Source: Selenomonas sp. AE3005
GTDB lineage: Bacteria > Bacillota > Negativicutes > Selenomonadales > Selenomonadaceae
Length of the DNA: 64,000 bases
NCBI RefSeq assembly: GCF_000686945.1
Contig: NZ_JMME01000013.1
Location: 62,001-126,000 of the forward strand
Direction: 5' to 3'
Positions within the stretch are counted from its first letter, which is position 1. Each line of letters opens with the position of its first letter. This document shows positions 1-50,707 of this stretch, piece by piece. The position numbers were made by a program, and so were the translations under genes. Below the pieces are notes generated by a model. The model saw only the letters and a program-made list of their open reading frames with translations. It was not told the DNA's origin and did not search any database.

Positions 1-311
1 TTTACAAGCTGTTCCGGATTTACTGCCATCTTGTCCTTTACCTGGGACGTCGGCAGCAAAAAGAGCGTTTCATATTTCTTATGACGAACCAGAGCCTTCT
101 TGTAAGGAACACGGCCTTCGGTAACGTCGATGAGGTCATACATAATGCGGTTTTCCAGGCCGAGGAGCAGGTCAAGATTGCGCAGGCCCGTATCAGTATC
201 CACCAGCACTACCTTCTTGCCGCGCATAGCAAGGCCCATACCTAAATTTGCCGTTGTCGTAGTCTTACCAACGCCGCCTTTACCAGAGGTTATTACATAG
301 ATTTCACTCAT
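1..311 (-). CDS. minD: Septum site-determining ATPase MinD (partial, C-terminus outside window)
   Basis: The first about 103 codons of MinD, the membrane-bound ATPase that with MinC keeps FtsZ rings away from the cell poles. The deviant Walker A motif GKGGVGKTTTTANLG lies at residues 10-24, and DTDTGLRNLD follows near residue 40, both typical of the ParA/MinD family. The ATG at 311 is preceded by AAAGGTAGG. It lies 11 bp downstream of minC, the usual minC-minD order, at the end of a shape and division block. The gene runs off the left edge, so the membrane-targeting helix cannot be judged. Confidence 0.96.
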   Translation of the reverse strand, partial: MSEIYVITSGKGGVGKTTTTANLGMGLAMRGKKVVLVDTDTGLRNLDLLLGLENRIMYDLIDVTEGRVPYKKALVRHKKYETLFLLPTSQVKDKMAVNPEQLV

Positions 312-322
312 ACTGTTAATTC

Positions 323-997
323 CTACCTTTCTATTGGTTCGATTACGATTTGACCATCTTTTATGGACGCGCGCTCAGCACGGTCCGTTTTTTCCATCTC
401 GTCCGGGCTCCGGGCGATGAGGTTGGAAATCCTTATCTGGGTGGGCATCAGGTGGTCAGCGATGATAAACGCCGTGCTGTCGCCATAGGCGCCGGCATGT
501 ACCATGCCCCGGCAGGTACCGCGGATATCAATGCTGCCGCCGGCGATAATCTGTGCGCCGGGGTTTACGTTGCCGCATACCAGAACCGATGATTTCGTCG
601 TGATTTCCTGGCCGCCGCGCAGGGTGCGGTTAATGACCACCATTTCCTGCGGCTGCAGTTCATCCTTGGCCGCCGGCGGTTCCGGCTGGGCCTGTTTTAC
701 CTCAGCCTGCGGCCTCTTTTCCGCCTGCATTTTCGCGGCCTGTTCTTCCTCTGATTCGGGGCGCTGTGTCCGGCAAATCAGACCATGCTCGTGGAAGAGC
801 CGCTGCAATTCATCACGCTCACTGCCCCGAAACACATCCCGGGGAATGAGGACCAAGGTGCCCCGCAGGAAAAAGGTGGAGCCGGACTCCAGCTTTTTCA
901 GCAAGTTTGCCCGCACATCCTCAAAGGATGCATCAGGAGCAAAGCTGAGCTGCAAACCCAGGGATGTACCCTTGATTTTTACAATATCTTCACTCAT
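323..997 (-). CDS. minC: Septum site-determining protein MinC
   Basis: MinC, 224 aa, the FtsZ-polymerisation inhibitor recruited to the membrane by MinD. The N-terminal domain (about residues 1-105) and the C-terminal beta-helix domain (from about 120, with the family motifs RGGQ and GNVNPGAQI followed by GGSIDIRG) are both present. A charged, proline- and glutamine-rich linker joins them. The ATG at 997 follows a GAGGA ribosome site. It sits between mrdA and minD on the same strand, probably one transcript with the mre genes. Length is normal for the family. Confidence 0.96.
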   Translation of the reverse strand: MSEDIVKIKGTSLGLQLSFAPDASFEDVRANLLKKLESGSTFFLRGTLVLIPRDVFRGSERDELQRLFHEHGLICRTQRPESEEEQAAKMQAEKRPQAEVKQAQPEPPAAKDELQPQEMVVINRTLRGGQEITTKSSVLVCGNVNPGAQIIAGGSIDIRGTCRGMVHAGAYGDSTAFIIADHLMPTQIRISNLIARSPDEMEKTDRAERASIKDGQIVIEPIER

Positions 998-45424: not shown

Positions 45425-45593
45425 GTGTTCTCGCGCTTTCGCGCTATCAACAATAAATATTATAGCGGAGAGTATTATATGTGTCAAGACTTTTTTTATG
45501 TTTTTTCCGCAATTCTTAGCGCGGTGCATTTCCTTCCAATATATGTTATAATAGCGGTATTTGATTCTAGTAATTATAGGGAGCGTCATACCT

Positions 45594-46436
45594 ATGGAAA
45601 GTATAGAAAAACCGCGTATCGGTCATATCAATTTCCTCAATGTCCTGCCGCTGACCTACAGCTATGCCCACGGCTTTGCTGACGGCCTGCAGCTGACGGA
45701 GGCGGTGCCGGCGGAGCTCAATCAGAAGATTCGGGCTCACCAGCTTGACATCAGCGCCGTGTCCTCCATCGTCTACGCCCGCAATGCGGCAGAGCTGTTA
45801 ATCCTGCCGGATATCTGCATTCGTTCTGACGCCGACGTGGAAAGCATTGTCCTCGTGTCGCGCAAACCGGCCGCCGAACTTGACGGCAGCAAAATCATTC
45901 TGACCGCCAAGTCGGAAACGTCCCACTGCCTGCTGAAAATCGTCCTGCACCGGGGCTACGGCGTAAAACCGGCCTATGAAATCCGCCCCATCGGCCTTGA
46001 CGATTACCTGCCGGCCGGGGCTGACGCCGCGCTTTTAATTGGGGACGACGCCCTGCACCTCTACCACAACCGGCAGCCGGGGCTTTACTACTACGACCTC
46101 GGCCGCGAGTGGCATAAGCTGACCGGTCATTCCATGGTCTATGCTGTCTGGGCCGTGCAAAAGGACTTTGCCGCCGACTGCCCCCATCAGCTGGAACTGG
46201 CCCATCAGCGTATTATTGACGGCCTGCATGACGGCCTTAGGCACAAGGACGCGGCCATCAAAGCCGTTTTTGCGGCCAAGGATTTTTCCTATGAAATCCT
46301 CGACCATTACTTAGGCGGCATTATCCACTGGGATTTGACCGCCGAGCATATAAAATCCCTGCAGCTGTTCTATCAGCTGGCCTTTGCCGAGGGACTTATC
46401 CCGGCAGTACCGGAAATAAATACAGCCCTCAGCTGA
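45594..46436 (+). CDS. mqnA: Chorismate dehydratase MqnA
   Basis: MqnA, 280 aa, turns chorismate into 3-enolpyruvylbenzoate, the first step of futalosine-route menaquinone synthesis. The periplasmic-binding-protein-like fold is recognisable from RIGHINFLNVLPLTYSYAHG, DISAVSSIVYARN, and LTAKSETSHCLLKIVLH. ATG 45594 is chosen; GGGAG lies somewhat upstream. It is followed convergently by the phosphorylase gene and then by mqnE-mqnE2-mqnC. Confidence 0.92.
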   Translation: MESIEKPRIGHINFLNVLPLTYSYAHGFADGLQLTEAVPAELNQKIRAHQLDISAVSSIVYARNAAELLILPDICIRSDADVESIVLVSRKPAAELDGSKIILTAKSETSHCLLKIVLHRGYGVKPAYEIRPIGLDDYLPAGADAALLIGDDALHLYHNRQPGLYYYDLGREWHKLTGHSMVYAVWAVQKDFAADCPHQLELAHQRIIDGLHDGLRHKDAAIKAVFAAKDFSYEILDHYLGGIIHWDLTAEHIKSLQLFYQLAFAEGLIPAVPEINTALS

Positions 46437-46447: not shown

Positions 46448-47296
46448 TTAACCTTTTTCGGATTCTTCCTTATAAACGTCCTTCAGGAGCGTTTCCTTGC
46501 GGAGGCTCTGACACTCACAGGTATGATGGTCAGCGTCCACATTGCGGATAGTTTCCAGGAGAATCTCGCCAATCATCGGCGCGTCATCGTAGAAAATATC
46601 ACGCATGGTGTCGTGCGACCAGACACGTTCGAGCCCTTCGCCGTAGTTGACCACATAGTAAAGGCCGGCATAGCAGGCGCCGATTTCCCGGGCCAGATAA
46701 ACCTCGGGGGCAATGCTTTGGCCGACAATATCGGCATGACCTTTGAGCATGGCGATTTCTGCCGGGCTTTCAAAATGACGGCCATCGGTGACAGCGTAAA
46801 TACCGCGGTCAAATACGCGCCCCTTAAAACGGCTGCGCACGGATTTTATGAGGTTCTGCCGCAGTTCGGGGCACAGGGCGTCGCGCATGATGAGCAGATA
46901 GCGTCCGTCCAGCATGACGTCCTTGCGGTTGGACATGTCAAGATAATCGTCCGGCACCATGAAATCGCGCGGGTCGAGCAGGTGATTGACCGTGCCCACG
47001 CCCCCTTCAGACAGGATACGTTTGACGCCGGCCTCGCGGAACACCCAGAACACCTGCCGGCTGGCGTCAGCTCTGGTCACACCGCTGCGCCAGCCATGCA
47101 TACGGCAGCACAGGACTTTCTTTTCCCCCACGGAAAACAGGCGCATAGCCGGGCTTTGCCCATACGGGGTAGCAAAATAAAGGTTATCTTCTAATATTTT
47201 TACATCTTTGTCGGGCAGGTTGGCCGGAAAATCGCTGGACAGCGTGCCGGAACCGCCCACCACAGCATAAGAAACCTGAGGTATTTGGTGATTCAT
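46448..47296 (-). CDS. MTAP-family nucleoside phosphorylase (probable futalosine-pathway enzyme)
   Basis: A 282-aa purine nucleoside phosphorylase of the methylthioadenosine phosphorylase class. It starts YAVVGGSGTLSSDFP and has the catalytic-region motifs GGVGTVNHLLDPRDFMVPDD and YAVTDGRHFESPAEIAML. Because it sits inside the menaquinone cluster, it may remove adenine from 6-amino-6-deoxyfutalosine (the MqnB role); an MTA-salvage role is the alternative. ATG 47296 follows AAAGGAGAGG; the ORF's extra 30 codons are translated repeat W2. Confidence 0.8.
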   Translation of the reverse strand: MNHQIPQVSYAVVGGSGTLSSDFPANLPDKDVKILEDNLYFATPYGQSPAMRLFSVGEKKVLCCRMHGWRSGVTRADASRQVFWVFREAGVKRILSEGGVGTVNHLLDPRDFMVPDDYLDMSNRKDVMLDGRYLLIMRDALCPELRQNLIKSVRSRFKGRVFDRGIYAVTDGRHFESPAEIAMLKGHADIVGQSIAPEVYLAREIGACYAGLYYVVNYGEGLERVWSHDTMRDIFYDDAPMIGEILLETIRNVDADHHTCECQSLRKETLLKDVYKEESEKG

Positions 47297-47330
47297 CGAA
47301 TCCTCTCCTTTTTTATGAATACATAAATCA

Positions 47331-47406
47331 TTATAACGCCGTTGTTCCAGTTTTGCCACCGGCAAAACTTCCGCTTGGCGTTTCAACTCGCTTACGAGTT
47401 ATAACA
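47331..47406 (-). repeat. IS605-like end / omega-RNA-like element W2 (short)
   Basis: A ~75-bp version of the W family: GTTATAAC, then AACGCCAAGCGGAAGTTTTG with hairpin GTTTTGCC / GGCAAAAC, then GGAACAACGGCGTTATAAT, reading on the minus strand. The CCCCCAC hairpin part is missing. It supplies the leader of the MTAP-like gene. Confidence 0.6.
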
Positions 47407-47466: not shown

Positions 47467-48561
47467 TTGCTTTGTACGAAAGAATACGCTGATATCGAGG
47501 CCAAAGTTATGAACGGCGAACGCCTCACCCGTGAGGACGGGCTGCGGCTTTTTGCCTGCCACGATATCGCCTGGCTCGGCGCTCTGGCCGATTACGTCCG
47601 CCGCGAAAAATGCGGGGACATCGTTTACTATAATGTAAACTGTCACGTAAACCTCACCAATATCTGCACCTCGCACTGTAAGTTCTGTGCCTTTGGCCGG
47701 GACAAGGACAGCAAGGGCGCTTATGCCATGACCAAGGACAAGGCCATCGCGCTCGTCCGCGACGCCATGCGTGACCCCCATCTGGCCGGACTGCACGTCG
47801 TCAGCGGCCTGCACCCGGATTGGAGCTTTGAGAACTACGAGGAAATCTTAAAAGCCCTCCATGAAACTTTCCCCTCATTATATCTGAAAGGCTTTACCGG
47901 CGTGGAAATCGTCCACTTTGCCAAGATTTCCGGCCTGTCCATCAAAGATGTGCTGCTGCGGCTGCAAGCGGCCGGCCTGCAGGCCATCGCCGGGGGCGGT
48001 GCGGAAATCCTCTCCGACCGTATACGCCAGCAGCTCTGCCCCAAGAAAGCCACGGCCGCAGAATGGCTCGAAGTCGCGCGGACGGCGCACAGCCTCGGCA
48101 TAAAGTCCAACGCCTCAATGCTCTACGGCCATATCGAAACCGTGGAGGAACGTGTCGACCACCTGCTGACCTTGCGCGAACTGCAGGACGAAACCGGCGG
48201 TTTCCAGACCTTTATCTGTTTCCCCTTCCTGCCCAAGAACACGGAGCTCGGGGAAAACATCACCCAGACCAGTATGTGGGACGACCTGCGCACCATGGCC
48301 ATCTCCCGGCTCATGCTCGACAATTTCCGCAATATCAAGGCCTACTGGGTTATGCTCACCGTACCTGTCGCACAGCTGGCCTTAGGCTTTGGCGCGAACG
48401 ATATCGACGGCACCATTCATAAGGAAACTATTCTCCACGACGCCGGTGCCACCAGTCCGACGGCCCTGCCCGAGGACACCATCGTCCATATCATTCGCGA
48501 GGCCGGCCGCATTCCGGCCGCCAGTGACTGCAATTTCAACATTATCCGGAACAAGGACTGA
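47467..48561 (+). CDS. mqnE: Aminofutalosine synthase MqnE
   Basis: A 364-aa radical SAM enzyme joining the adenosyl radical to 3-enolpyruvylbenzoate to give 6-amino-6-deoxyfutalosine. Cluster motif CTSHCKFC lies at about 67-74 in VNLTNICTSHCKFCAFGRDK. GFTGVEIVHFAKISGLS and AGGGAEILSDRIRQQLCPKK are family blocks. TTG 47467 follows GAGGAGGG, just after a small hairpin (47433-47452). It is followed within 8 bp by a second MqnE-type gene. Confidence 0.92.
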   Translation: MLCTKEYADIEAKVMNGERLTREDGLRLFACHDIAWLGALADYVRREKCGDIVYYNVNCHVNLTNICTSHCKFCAFGRDKDSKGAYAMTKDKAIALVRDAMRDPHLAGLHVVSGLHPDWSFENYEEILKALHETFPSLYLKGFTGVEIVHFAKISGLSIKDVLLRLQAAGLQAIAGGGAEILSDRIRQQLCPKKATAAEWLEVARTAHSLGIKSNASMLYGHIETVEERVDHLLTLRELQDETGGFQTFICFPFLPKNTELGENITQTSMWDDLRTMAISRLMLDNFRNIKAYWVMLTVPVAQLALGFGANDIDGTIHKETILHDAGATSPTALPEDTIVHIIREAGRIPAASDCNFNIIRNKD

Positions 48562-48569
48562 GGTATAGC

Positions 48570-49679
48570 ATGAATGAATCCATACTCGCAGCCGCCCGGC
48601 AAAAAGCGGCTGCCGGCCAGCGCCTCTCACTGGAGGAAGGCCTGGCCCTCTATGAGGAAAATGACCTGATGTCCCTGGCCAAGTGGGCCCGGGCTGCCAA
48701 GGAACGCCACAGCGGCCGGCAGGTGTTCTACACCGTCAACCGCCATATCAACCTCACGAATATCTGCGCCTCCGGCTGCCCCCTCTGCGCCTTTCAGGTG
48801 CCCGAGGAGGACGCCGCCCGCCGCGGCTTTTTACTGAGTCCTTCAGATTTGGACCGCGAAATCGCCGCCGCCCGTAATATCAAAGGCCTCGCGGAAATCC
48901 ATATCGTCAGCGCCCTGCACCCGAGCCAGCCCTTTGCCTACTATCTGGACGCCGTGAAAAAAATCCGCGCCGCCTTCCCCGACGTGGAGATAAACGCCTT
49001 TACCCCCGTGGAAATCGTCCACTTTGCCAAAATCAGCGGCCAGTCCGTACAGCAGGTGCTCGAAGTCCTGCAGGCGGCCGGCCTGTCCTCCCTGCCCGGC
49101 GGCGGTGCCGAAATCCTCGTGGACCGGGTACGGCAGATTATCTGTCCGCAAAAAGCGGACACGGCGCAGTGGCTCGACACCATGGAACGCGCCCATAAAC
49201 TCGGCATTGCCACCAACGCCTCCATGATGTACGGCCATGTGGAAACCGTCCGCGAACGGTTCGAACACCTGCTGAAACTGCGCGAACTGCAGGATAAAAC
49301 CCACGGATTCCGCGCCTTTATGCTGTTCCCGTTCCACCCTGCAAACACGCAGCTCGCGCAGGAACACACAATCACCCCGGCCGGCTCCTGGGAGAACCTC
49401 AAAATGCTCGCCCTTTCCCGGCTCATGCTCGATAACTTCGACCATTTCAAAGCCTTCTGGGTAATGCTGAGCCTGCCTATCGCCCAGCTCGCCCTGGGCT
49501 TTGGCGCGGACGACCTCGACGGCACCATCGGCGAGGAAAAAATCATTCATGCCGCCGGCGCTAAGACCGGTGCCGGTATCACACGCGAAAAACTCGGCGC
49601 CATCATTCGCGAAACAGGCTACGAGCCGGTGGAACGCGACGCCAGTTATCAGCCGGCAAGACAGGGAGGTGAAGGATAA
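48570..49679 (+). CDS. Second MqnE-type radical SAM enzyme
   Basis: A 369-aa paralogue of the preceding MqnE, in tandem. The cluster motif is CASGCPLC in NLTNICASGCPLCAFQVPEE, keeping CxxxCxxC but changing the usual K/R-F-C-A-F-x-R. FTPVEIVHFAKISGQS and PGGGAEILVDRVRQIICPQK are conserved. It may be a second aminofutalosine synthase, or act on a related enolpyruvyl substrate. The stop overlaps the mqnC start by 1 bp, so all three genes are one operon. Confidence 0.82.
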   Translation: MNESILAAARQKAAAGQRLSLEEGLALYEENDLMSLAKWARAAKERHSGRQVFYTVNRHINLTNICASGCPLCAFQVPEEDAARRGFLLSPSDLDREIAAARNIKGLAEIHIVSALHPSQPFAYYLDAVKKIRAAFPDVEINAFTPVEIVHFAKISGQSVQQVLEVLQAAGLSSLPGGGAEILVDRVRQIICPQKADTAQWLDTMERAHKLGIATNASMMYGHVETVRERFEHLLKLRELQDKTHGFRAFMLFPFHPANTQLAQEHTITPAGSWENLKMLALSRLMLDNFDHFKAFWVMLSLPIAQLALGFGADDLDGTIGEEKIIHAAGAKTGAGITREKLGAIIRETGYEPVERDASYQPARQGGEG

Positions 49680-50707
49680 TGCGCATGGAAAAACAGGAGG
49701 CCGTGGAGCTTTTAACCCACGGCAATCCGCTCGAACTCGGCGCCCGCGCCGACGCTATCCGCCGCGAACGGTTTGGCAATACGGTGACTTTCATCGTTGA
49801 CCGCAATATCAACTACACCAACATCTGCCAGAATGAATGCCGGTTCTGTGCCTTCTTCCGCCGCAAGGAGCATAAGGACGCCTACCTTTTGGACTATGAC
49901 ACCATTCTCGCCAAGGTGCGCGAAACTGTCGAGGCCGGCGGCACGCAGGTCATGATTCAGGGCGGCCTGCACCCCGACTTAGGCCTGCCCTTTTACGAGG
50001 AAATGCTGCGGAAAATAAAATCTAACTTTGATATCACTATCCATTCCTTCACGGCCACGGAAATCCAGCACTTTGCCCGGCAGGCAGGACTGTCCGTCCT
50101 CGAAACCCTCAAACGCCTGCAGGCGGCCGGCCTTGACAGCCTGCCCGGCGGCGGTGCCGAAATCCTCTCCGACCGCGTGCGCCAAATCGTCAGCCCCAAG
50201 AAAATCATGACTGACGACTGGCTGGCCGTCATGGAGGCCGCCCACTCCATCGGCATGAAAAGCACGGCCACCATGGTTATCGGCCTCGGCGAAACCATGG
50301 AAGAGCGCATTGAACACATGGAAAAAATCCGCCGCCTGCAGGATAAGACCGGCGGTTTCCGCGCCTTTATCACCTGGACATTCCAGCCCGGCAACACCGA
50401 TATCGGCGGCGAAAAAGTCAGCGCCTGGGACTACATGAAAACCCTGGCCATGAGCCGCATTTACATGGATAACATCGACCATATCCAAGGCTCCTGGCTC
50501 ACCCAGGGCGAACGTATCGGCCAGCTGACCTTAGGCTTTGGCGGTGACGATTTAGGCAGCATTATGCTCGAAGAAAATGTCGTCCGCGCTGCCGGGACAC
50601 GCTACGACATGTCTATCCGCAAAATGGTAAACCTCATTCAAGGCGCCGGCCGCGACGCCGCCCAACGGGATACGACATATCGGATTATAAAGCGGTATGA
50701 TAATTAA
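49679..50707 (+). CDS. mqnC: Cyclic dehypoxanthinyl futalosine synthase MqnC
   Basis: MqnC, 342 aa, a radical SAM enzyme that cyclises dehypoxanthine futalosine. Cluster motif CQNECRFC occurs in NYTNICQNECRFCAFFRRKE (about 47-66), followed by VMIQGGLHPDLGLPFYEEML and PGGGAEILSDRVRQIVSPKK. ATG 49679 overlaps the preceding stop as TAATG, with GGGAGGTGAAGG upstream. Last gene of the operon; mqnD is not in this window. Confidence 0.93.
   Translation: MRMEKQEAVELLTHGNPLELGARADAIRRERFGNTVTFIVDRNINYTNICQNECRFCAFFRRKEHKDAYLLDYDTILAKVRETVEAGGTQVMIQGGLHPDLGLPFYEEMLRKIKSNFDITIHSFTATEIQHFARQAGLSVLETLKRLQAAGLDSLPGGGAEILSDRVRQIVSPKKIMTDDWLAVMEAAHSIGMKSTATMVIGLGETMEERIEHMEKIRRLQDKTGGFRAFITWTFQPGNTDIGGEKVSAWDYMKTLAMSRIYMDNIDHIQGSWLTQGERIGQLTLGFGGDDLGSIMLEENVVRAAGTRYDMSIRKMVNLIQGAGRDAAQRDTTYRIIKRYDN

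Follow-up and report, generated by a model that had tools for sequence, protein, structure and literature searches.

A pair of diverged MqnE paralogues is retained jointly in the futalosine pathway of many Negativicutes

The futalosine route to menaquinone is under study as a drug target and in the gut microbiome, and schemes of it usually show a single MqnE, the enzyme that converts 3-enolpyruvylbenzoate and S-adenosylmethionine (SAM) to aminofutalosine. A stretch of 64,000 nucleotides from Selenomonas sp. AE3005 (contig NZ_JMME01000013.1, positions 62,001 to 126,000), which we call the window, contains two MqnE-type radical SAM genes, E1 and E2, followed by mqnC. We found that mqnE was duplicated in the Negativicutes, that the two copies are kept together under purifying selection, and that both have intact cluster motifs and most of the positions typical of MqnE. 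We give a probability of about one half to the reading that E1 and E2 form a co-dependent pair, with both proteins acting at the aminofutalosine step.

E1 and E2 share 48% identity over 353 positions and have the same domain architecture, a radical SAM domain with a CofH_C domain (PF04055, PF19288); PF04055 scores 59.8 bits in E1 and 54.0 bits in E2 (cut-off 29.5). With E2 as the query, three family members were found in the genome at E < 0.001: E1, E2, and mqnC. We consider homology by chance out of the question because these are three adjoining full-length homologues with E-values < 1e-70. E1 scores 463.2 bits against the MqnE family TIGR03700, above the curated NCBIfam cut-off of 434.55 bits, and E2 of the window falls 7 bits short of it at 427.4. 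Elsewhere (loci and genomes outside the window are given by our own L and G handles), E1 of L021, L034, L048 and L050 scores 459.7-504.9 bits and E2 of L033, L047 and L049 passes at 446.0-462.6 bits; E2 of L021 is also below the cut-off (426.8 bits). Against the MqnC profile TIGR03699, E1 (355.7 bits) and E2 (360.3 bits) are both below the cut-off of 428.1, which the product of mqnC passes with 481.7 bits. Both are likewise below the cut-off of 374.1 for the CofH profile TIGR03551 (316.3 and 318.0 bits). The three cluster cysteines are present in all 43 E1 and all 45 E2 sequences aligned. Structural modelling of both proteins, proposed in an earlier note made from the window sequence, gave an MqnE-type fold for each. 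The AlphaFold2 models had mean predicted local distance difference test scores of 91.0 (E1) and 92.6 (E2) and matched the MqnE structures 6xi9/6xig at Z 45.7 and 44.2, with the next family at 31.4 and 30.4. Their root-mean-square deviation from Pedobacter heparinus MqnE was 1.9-2.3 over 345-349 residues.

We built trees of 75, 70 and 60 chosen sequences. The first is the most careful, and its bootstrap had not converged; the other two are quick trees to which more Negativicutes and named MqnEs of other phyla, respectively, were added. In the 75-sequence tree, E1 (19 sequences) and E2 (21 sequences) were each monophyletic with support of 100/100, and the two clades were sisters (91/99) nested inside the single-copy MqnEs of other Bacillota. 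The same clades were recovered with 20 + 20 sequences in the 70-sequence tree and 11 + 11 in the 60-sequence tree. These topologies trace E1 and E2 to one ancient duplication close to the root of the dual-copy Negativicutes. The paralogues are non-identical and both are conserved, and the alternative that the earlier note had raised, near-identical recent duplicates, is excluded by the identity, the trees, and the ratios of nonsynonymous to synonymous substitution rates (dN/dS) given below.

Nine Negativicutes have a single MqnE, eight of them from one genus (g134) and one from another family (f91), and seven of these sequences were read. None of them belongs to the E1 or the E2 clade. The copy from f91 branches before the split; those from g134 stand at the base of E2 in the 70-sequence tree (Shimodaira-Hasegawa approximate likelihood-ratio test 89) and have no firm position in the 60-sequence tree. 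A tree of MqnC and MqnZ (24 rows) separated the operons of g134 from every dual-copy operon, even that of L177, a genome from the same family that has both copies. The g134 genus may have preserved the ancestral arrangement, lost E1 after the duplication, or acquired another operon.

The single-copy Negativicutes mqnE sits in an mqnE-mqnA-mqnC-mqnZ operon. In the dual-copy families fetched from outside the window's family, this slot reads E2-mqnA-mqnC-mqnZ and E1 lies elsewhere; E2 has the slot of the single mqnE of G093, G157, G119 and G074. In the window's family, E1-E2-mqnC stand together in most genomes, and in some E1 is 7-9 kb away or far off. Because E2 occupies the slot of the single-copy gene, gene order indicates that E2 inherited the position of mqnE and that E1 is the copy that moved.

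In a first sample of 60 genomes, the window's own included, the pathway occurs in 43, every one of which has both copies; the E1 sequence was read in 37 of these and E1 was assigned by score in six. A second sample comprised 180 Negativicutes with completeness of at least 90%, in which E1 and E2 were assigned by score and position where no sequence was fetched. A match was found in 77, of which 68 were E2-type and nine single-copy, and the other 103 had no match to any of the three genes at the threshold applied. E1 accompanied E2 in at least 65 of the 68 genomes, from some 25 families, and no genome had E1 without E2 (0/65). Named dual-copy genera include Selenomonas, Megamonas, Anaerovibrio and Propionispira. 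Linkage does not explain this joint retention because E1 is on another contig or > 5 kb away in 37/65 genomes (28 outside the window's family and 9 inside). The statement of the earlier note that one MqnE is what most pathways need is borne out in our sample: of the 28 other Bacillota genomes matching both E2 and PF02621, 27 have one full MqnE-type gene. G078 has an MqnE-type fragment only, at a contig edge, and G062 has one additional match, of MqnC-like strength.

Both copies are under purifying selection. In ten close pairs, dN/dS was 0.009-0.026 for E1 and 0.011-0.065 for E2, and for the pair L020-L021 it was 0.147 and 0.192. Between the window and L020 and L021 the values were 0.079 and 0.090 for E1 and 0.198 and 0.170 for E2, with dS near saturation. 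E2 of the window evolves faster than E1 (dN to L020 of 0.251 vs 0.138; end branch 0.66-0.76).

We then compared residues, numbered as in E1, with a canonical MqnE set of 31 sequences (26 from other Bacillota with 6xi9, two from Streptomyces, and those of Sulfurovum and Paenibacillus). Proteins < 320 aa and the repeats L030 and L031 (of L052 and L035) were omitted. The alignment used for residue shifts left out 18 near-identical same-genus loci with L073, L082 and L083, the column counts left out L073, and L189 is outside all trees and counts. At 18 columns, chosen in the analysis, that separate canonical MqnE from 59 MqnC and 3 CofH sequences, the MqnE residue is found in 93% of cases in canonical MqnEs, 86% in E1, 84% in E2, 1% in MqnC and 11% in CofH. 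This retention in both copies gives little support to the suggestion of the earlier note that E2 uses a different enolpyruvyl substrate. Because the MqnE-type positions persist in both, we hold the shared function to be, most plausibly, aminofutalosine synthesis. Of the two copies in the window, E2 appears to be the more drifted, since it has 13/18 of these residues (72%) vs 16/18 (89%) in E1.

The two clades have diverged from canonical MqnE to a similar extent. At 81 columns that are near-invariant in the canonical set, canonical MqnEs miss a mean of 1.6, E1 13.1 and E2 12.6. Early on, E1 was the copy nearer to canonical, as a deep E1 (L048) misses four of these columns and its partner E2 (L047) misses seven. 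It is improbable that E1 and E2 are plain isozymes, each fully active and kept for dosage or for differing expression conditions. Such isozymes would be intact and constrained, as both copies are, and the two genes are unlinked in many genomes and hence separately regulable, but fully redundant copies should disappear more frequently than observed, with both kept in at least 65 of 68 genomes and E1 alone in none, and each copy departs from canonical at about 13 near-invariant columns.

The changes in E1 and E2 fall at different places. In E2, His289, Arg353 and Tyr357 are kept in 45/45 sequences and Thr355 in 41/45 (Ala in the window). In E1, residue 289 is Asn in 40/43 and residue 251 is Cys in 39/43; Arg353 is lost in 30/43 (to Cys or Ser) and kept in 13/43, Tyr357 is lost in 30/43 (to Phe or Ser) and kept in 13/43, and Thr355 is found in 0/43. 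Arg353, Thr355 and Tyr357 are conserved across MqnE, MqnC and CofH, with Arg353 belonging to the family-wide RDTxY motif. The loss of these family-universal residues in E1 lies in a derived sub-clade. Position 251 changed from Pro to Cys in E1 and from Pro to Leu, Ala or Ser in E2. The clade-specific shifts are K72P, D42R, A145P and R348Y in E2 and H289N, P251C and N311 in E1. Among 49 MqnEs of other phyla, H289, R353 and Y357 are present in 49/49 and P251 in 47, in a set that was found by the E1-built patterns IKAYW[VI]M and NASMLYGH and is biased to E1-like local sequence. The single copy stays canonical in Negativicutes too, since the seven sequences read keep P251, H289, R353, T355 and Y357. 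The change at 289 is not fixed in E1 because five of 30 further E1-type loci keep His. In the AlphaFold2 model of E1, residue 251 lies towards the C-terminal end of long strand six (246-253), and residue 289 is immediately before the short strand 290-292; any roles of residues 251, 289 and 353-357 are putative. A new cluster-binding trio of cysteines in E1 (C251, C353, C355) was considered and rejected, as the window has Ser353 and other E1 sequences have Arg, Val or Thr. One genome, G175, has two E1-type genes (L187, L188) beside E2, and L188 keeps His289 and ERDSLY.

The reading that we favor is that mqnE duplicated once, long ago, in the Negativicutes, and that each copy would then have lost part of the features of the single canonical MqnE so that neither can replace the other. 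E2 would have stayed in the old mqnE-mqnA-mqnC-mqnZ slot with the family-universal residues kept, and E1 would have drifted further, in its C-terminal motif and in the His before the last barrel strand. The pair could act as one hetero-oligomer or as two enzymes under different conditions. A single duplication, joint retention with almost no exceptions, and the partial decay that each copy shows relative to a lone canonical MqnE agree better with a function-sharing pair than with two complete spares. The catalytic activity and substrate of E1 and E2, their co-dependence and its mechanism are what we infer from these patterns. More tentatively, and at somewhat less than even odds, the pair may be an obligate E1:E2 two-protein aminofutalosine synthase, or one copy may carry out a second radical SAM step whose product is a modified futalosine intermediate or quinone.

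Several observations weigh against a pair sharing one reaction. E2 of the window retains just 13 of the 18 MqnE-specific residues. Arg353 and Tyr357, which are lost in many E1 proteins, are present in all 31 canonical MqnEs, 59 MqnC and 3 CofH sequences, and their loss could mean a changed reaction. The stem branch in the 60-sequence tree is longer for E2 (0.53) than for E1 (0.34), and the differing drift of the two copies, for instance at position 251, would also be consistent with separate roles. E2 stands without E1 among the matches listed for three genomes (G158, G166 and G297); these matches number two each in G158 and G166 and at least three in G297, and the missing E1 of G158 and G166 may reflect assembly gaps.

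The chief rival explanation, which we consider unlikely, is that one copy runs a new radical SAM reaction in the quinone pathway and the other makes aminofutalosine alone. Long stems in both clades, clade-specific shifts at fixed positions and the loss of family-universal residues in E1 are as this would predict, and strict co-occurrence fits two successive steps. Against it, MqnE-specific positions are mostly retained in both copies, and neither E1 nor E2 was found to have a partner gene of its own. A single copy accompanies the same mqnA, mqnC and mqnZ in nine Negativicutes (seven sequences read) and in the other Bacillota sampled, so the pathway as such needs no extra step. By residue loss, E1 would be as good a candidate as E2 for such a reaction. 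The earlier note had taken E2 for the changed copy; the longer stem and the lower MqnE score of E2 agree with this, and synteny and the universal residues, which E1 lost, do not.

That note had correctly read residues 66-73 of E2 as CASGCPLC, followed by AFQVP, where E1 has CTSHCKFC followed by AFGRD. Its proposal that these loop residues mark a new function was not borne out, as the loop varies among single-copy MqnEs: the two residues after CAF are GV, GK, GC, GR, RK, QR, SK, SR or SA in the 38 read. QV after CAF is confined to E2 (25/45 sequences), and CPLCAF is invariant in the 39 E2 sequences shown and also occurs in the single-copy MqnE of L064. The Pro of FQVP and a two-residue insert after the cluster loop are private to E2 of the window among MqnE-type sequences. 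We therefore rejected FQVP as a marker, since it is private to this genome.

Negativicutes lack MqnD. Ravcheev and Thiele (PMC4746308) described mqnD as missing in Selenomonas, Mitsuokella and Megamonas and proposed a PF01048 phosphorylase, named mqnZ, as the substitute, with MqnD alone named there as replaced. In the window genome, mqnA is the sole PF02621 gene and a late decarboxylase (TIGR03701, 631.8 bits) is present, indicating a futalosine-type route with no MqnD match. We find it very hard to credit that E1 or E2 substitutes for MqnD. No second PF02621 gene above the cut-off was found in the 43 pathway genomes (G021 has none, and in G048 one gene is split over two contigs), as such a substitution would require, but distribution led us to reject it: the nine single-copy Negativicutes also lack MqnD, and 15 of 18 MqnZ-positive other Bacillota with a single MqnE have no second PF02621 match above the cut-off. 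The second matches are of 180 bits in G096, two pieces (94 and 43 bits) in G061, and 46 bits in G157. A second PF02621 gene of > 200 bits occurs in 8/10 MqnZ-negative and 0/18 MqnZ-positive other Bacillota, and those of L113, L114 and L193 share 63-66% identity with a Streptomyces MqnD. MqnB (TIGR03664 above the cut-off) was found in 9/43 genomes tested, all nine MqnZ-negative, and in 0/34 MqnZ-positive genomes (16 other Bacillota and 18 Negativicutes). Thus, MqnZ tracks the absence of both MqnB and MqnD. By family, MqnZ fits the MqnB role because it is nearest to the methylthioadenosine (MTA) phosphorylases. MtnA was rejected as a general MqnD stand-in (after phosphorolysis, isomerase and then aldol cleavage), as TIGR00512 is absent from 9/47 genomes, including that of the window and five further genomes with MqnZ (G012, G026, G028, G051 and G097). 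No recurrent isomerase or aldolase gene beside mqnZ was seen among families in at least three loci of the 18 other Bacillota, judged by eye from sequence starts. Three genomes of the window's family (G023, G027 and G030) have no mqnA (PF02621) and no MqnE or MqnC match, yet have TIGR03701 at 628-638 bits; perhaps they carry out late menaquinone steps without the early ones, using an outside precursor.

The gene coordinates (Table 1), the identity and the family scores confirm that tandem MqnE-type genes are packed tightly before mqnC. E1 starts with TTG, with GAGGAGGG directly upstream, and Shine-Dalgarno-like sequences accompany E1, E2 and mqnC, which lie head to tail on the same strand. The E1-E2 gap is 8 nt, and the ATG of mqnC shares 1 nt with the stop codon of E2. 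The transcription unit is likely E1-E2-mqnC because the minus-strand phosphorylase gene sits between mqnA and E1. Over short stretches, the first 36 codons of the mqnZ open reading frame (ORF) match two other sites of this genome (58% and 86%). This 5' end (47294-47386, minus strand) looks like a dispersed repeat, and the true start is therefore probably codon 31 (MNHQ...).

Table 1. Features of the mqn locus (window positions).
Feature	Positions	Strand	Remarks
mqnA, chorismate dehydratase	45561-46436	+	sole PF02621 gene of the genome
PF01048 phosphorylase (named "mqnZ" by Ravcheev and Thiele in 2016); belongs to the pathway variant	46448-47386	-	
E1, MqnE paralogue 1	47467-48561	+	364 aa; TIGR03700 463.2 bits; without canonical His289, Arg353, Thr355, Tyr357
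E1 CX3CX2C cluster loop, CTSHCKFC	47665-47688	+	
E2, MqnE paralogue 2	48570-49679	+	369 aa; TIGR03700 427.4 bits; ancestral mqnE slot; fast-evolving in this genome
E2 CX3CX2C cluster loop, CASGCPLC	48765-48788	+	
mqnC, cyclic dehypoxanthinyl futalosine synthase	49679-50707	+	342 aa; TIGR03699 above cut-off

In L034, L036, L040, L042 and L044, which represent five families, the surroundings of the unlinked E1 gene encode a conserved protein (about 580 aa, 57-71% identity). None of these five proteins had a Pfam match, and the one scanned against NCBIfam had no match at a limit of 1e-100; an initial assignment as a UbiB kinase was withdrawn. In L044, a ubiE/menG-type methyltransferase gene (145-855, minus strand; PF01209, 236 bits) is divergent from E1. 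An ABC transporter ATPase gene follows E1 in L034 and L046 (PF00005) and, by eye, in L042. Two Streptomyces plasmids (L145 and L151) carry mqn sets with mqnE, mqnC and an mqnA-like gene, together with mqnD on L145 and a futalosine hydrolase on L151. These sets adjoin secondary-metabolite genes (P450 and NRPS on L145, P450 and glycosyltransferase on L151).

We found no description of two MqnE copies in a literature search that reached few subscription papers. If true, a division of labor between radical SAM proteins would be new to the descriptions of the futalosine pathway that we found. The annotation "mqnE" hides two genes that look non-interchangeable across many Negativicutes families, and single-gene deletions or inhibitors of MqnE may behave unexpectedly in those with both copies. 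Their single-copy relatives, of the same class and with the same mqnA, mqnC and mqnZ, are a natural comparison for the role of the pair.

Among known systems, CofH and MqnC have the radical SAM and CofH_C architecture in common with E1 and E2, and the Asn at position 289 of E1 is found in all three CofH sequences read. Unlike these families, E1 and E2 hold MqnE residues at the family-separating positions and score outside both, and they fall outside MqnC in the trees too. They resemble MqnE (TIGR03700; 6xi9/6xig from P. heparinus) in fold (Z 44-46), in the CX3CX2C loop and GGGAE block, in most MqnE-specific positions, and in the mqnA/mqnC neighborhood. In other Bacillota and in nine Negativicutes, the lone mqnE of the mqnE-mqnA-mqnC-mqnZ operon has the same slot as E2 and is of the type from which E1 and E2 descend. 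In single-copy Negativicutes, this MqnE is canonical at P251, H289, R353, T355 and Y357 in 7/7 sequences read, unlike E1 and E2. Compared with known MqnE, there are two co-retained copies here and one there; E1 lacks His289 and, in many lineages, Arg353, Thr355 and Tyr357, and both E1 and E2 lack Pro251.

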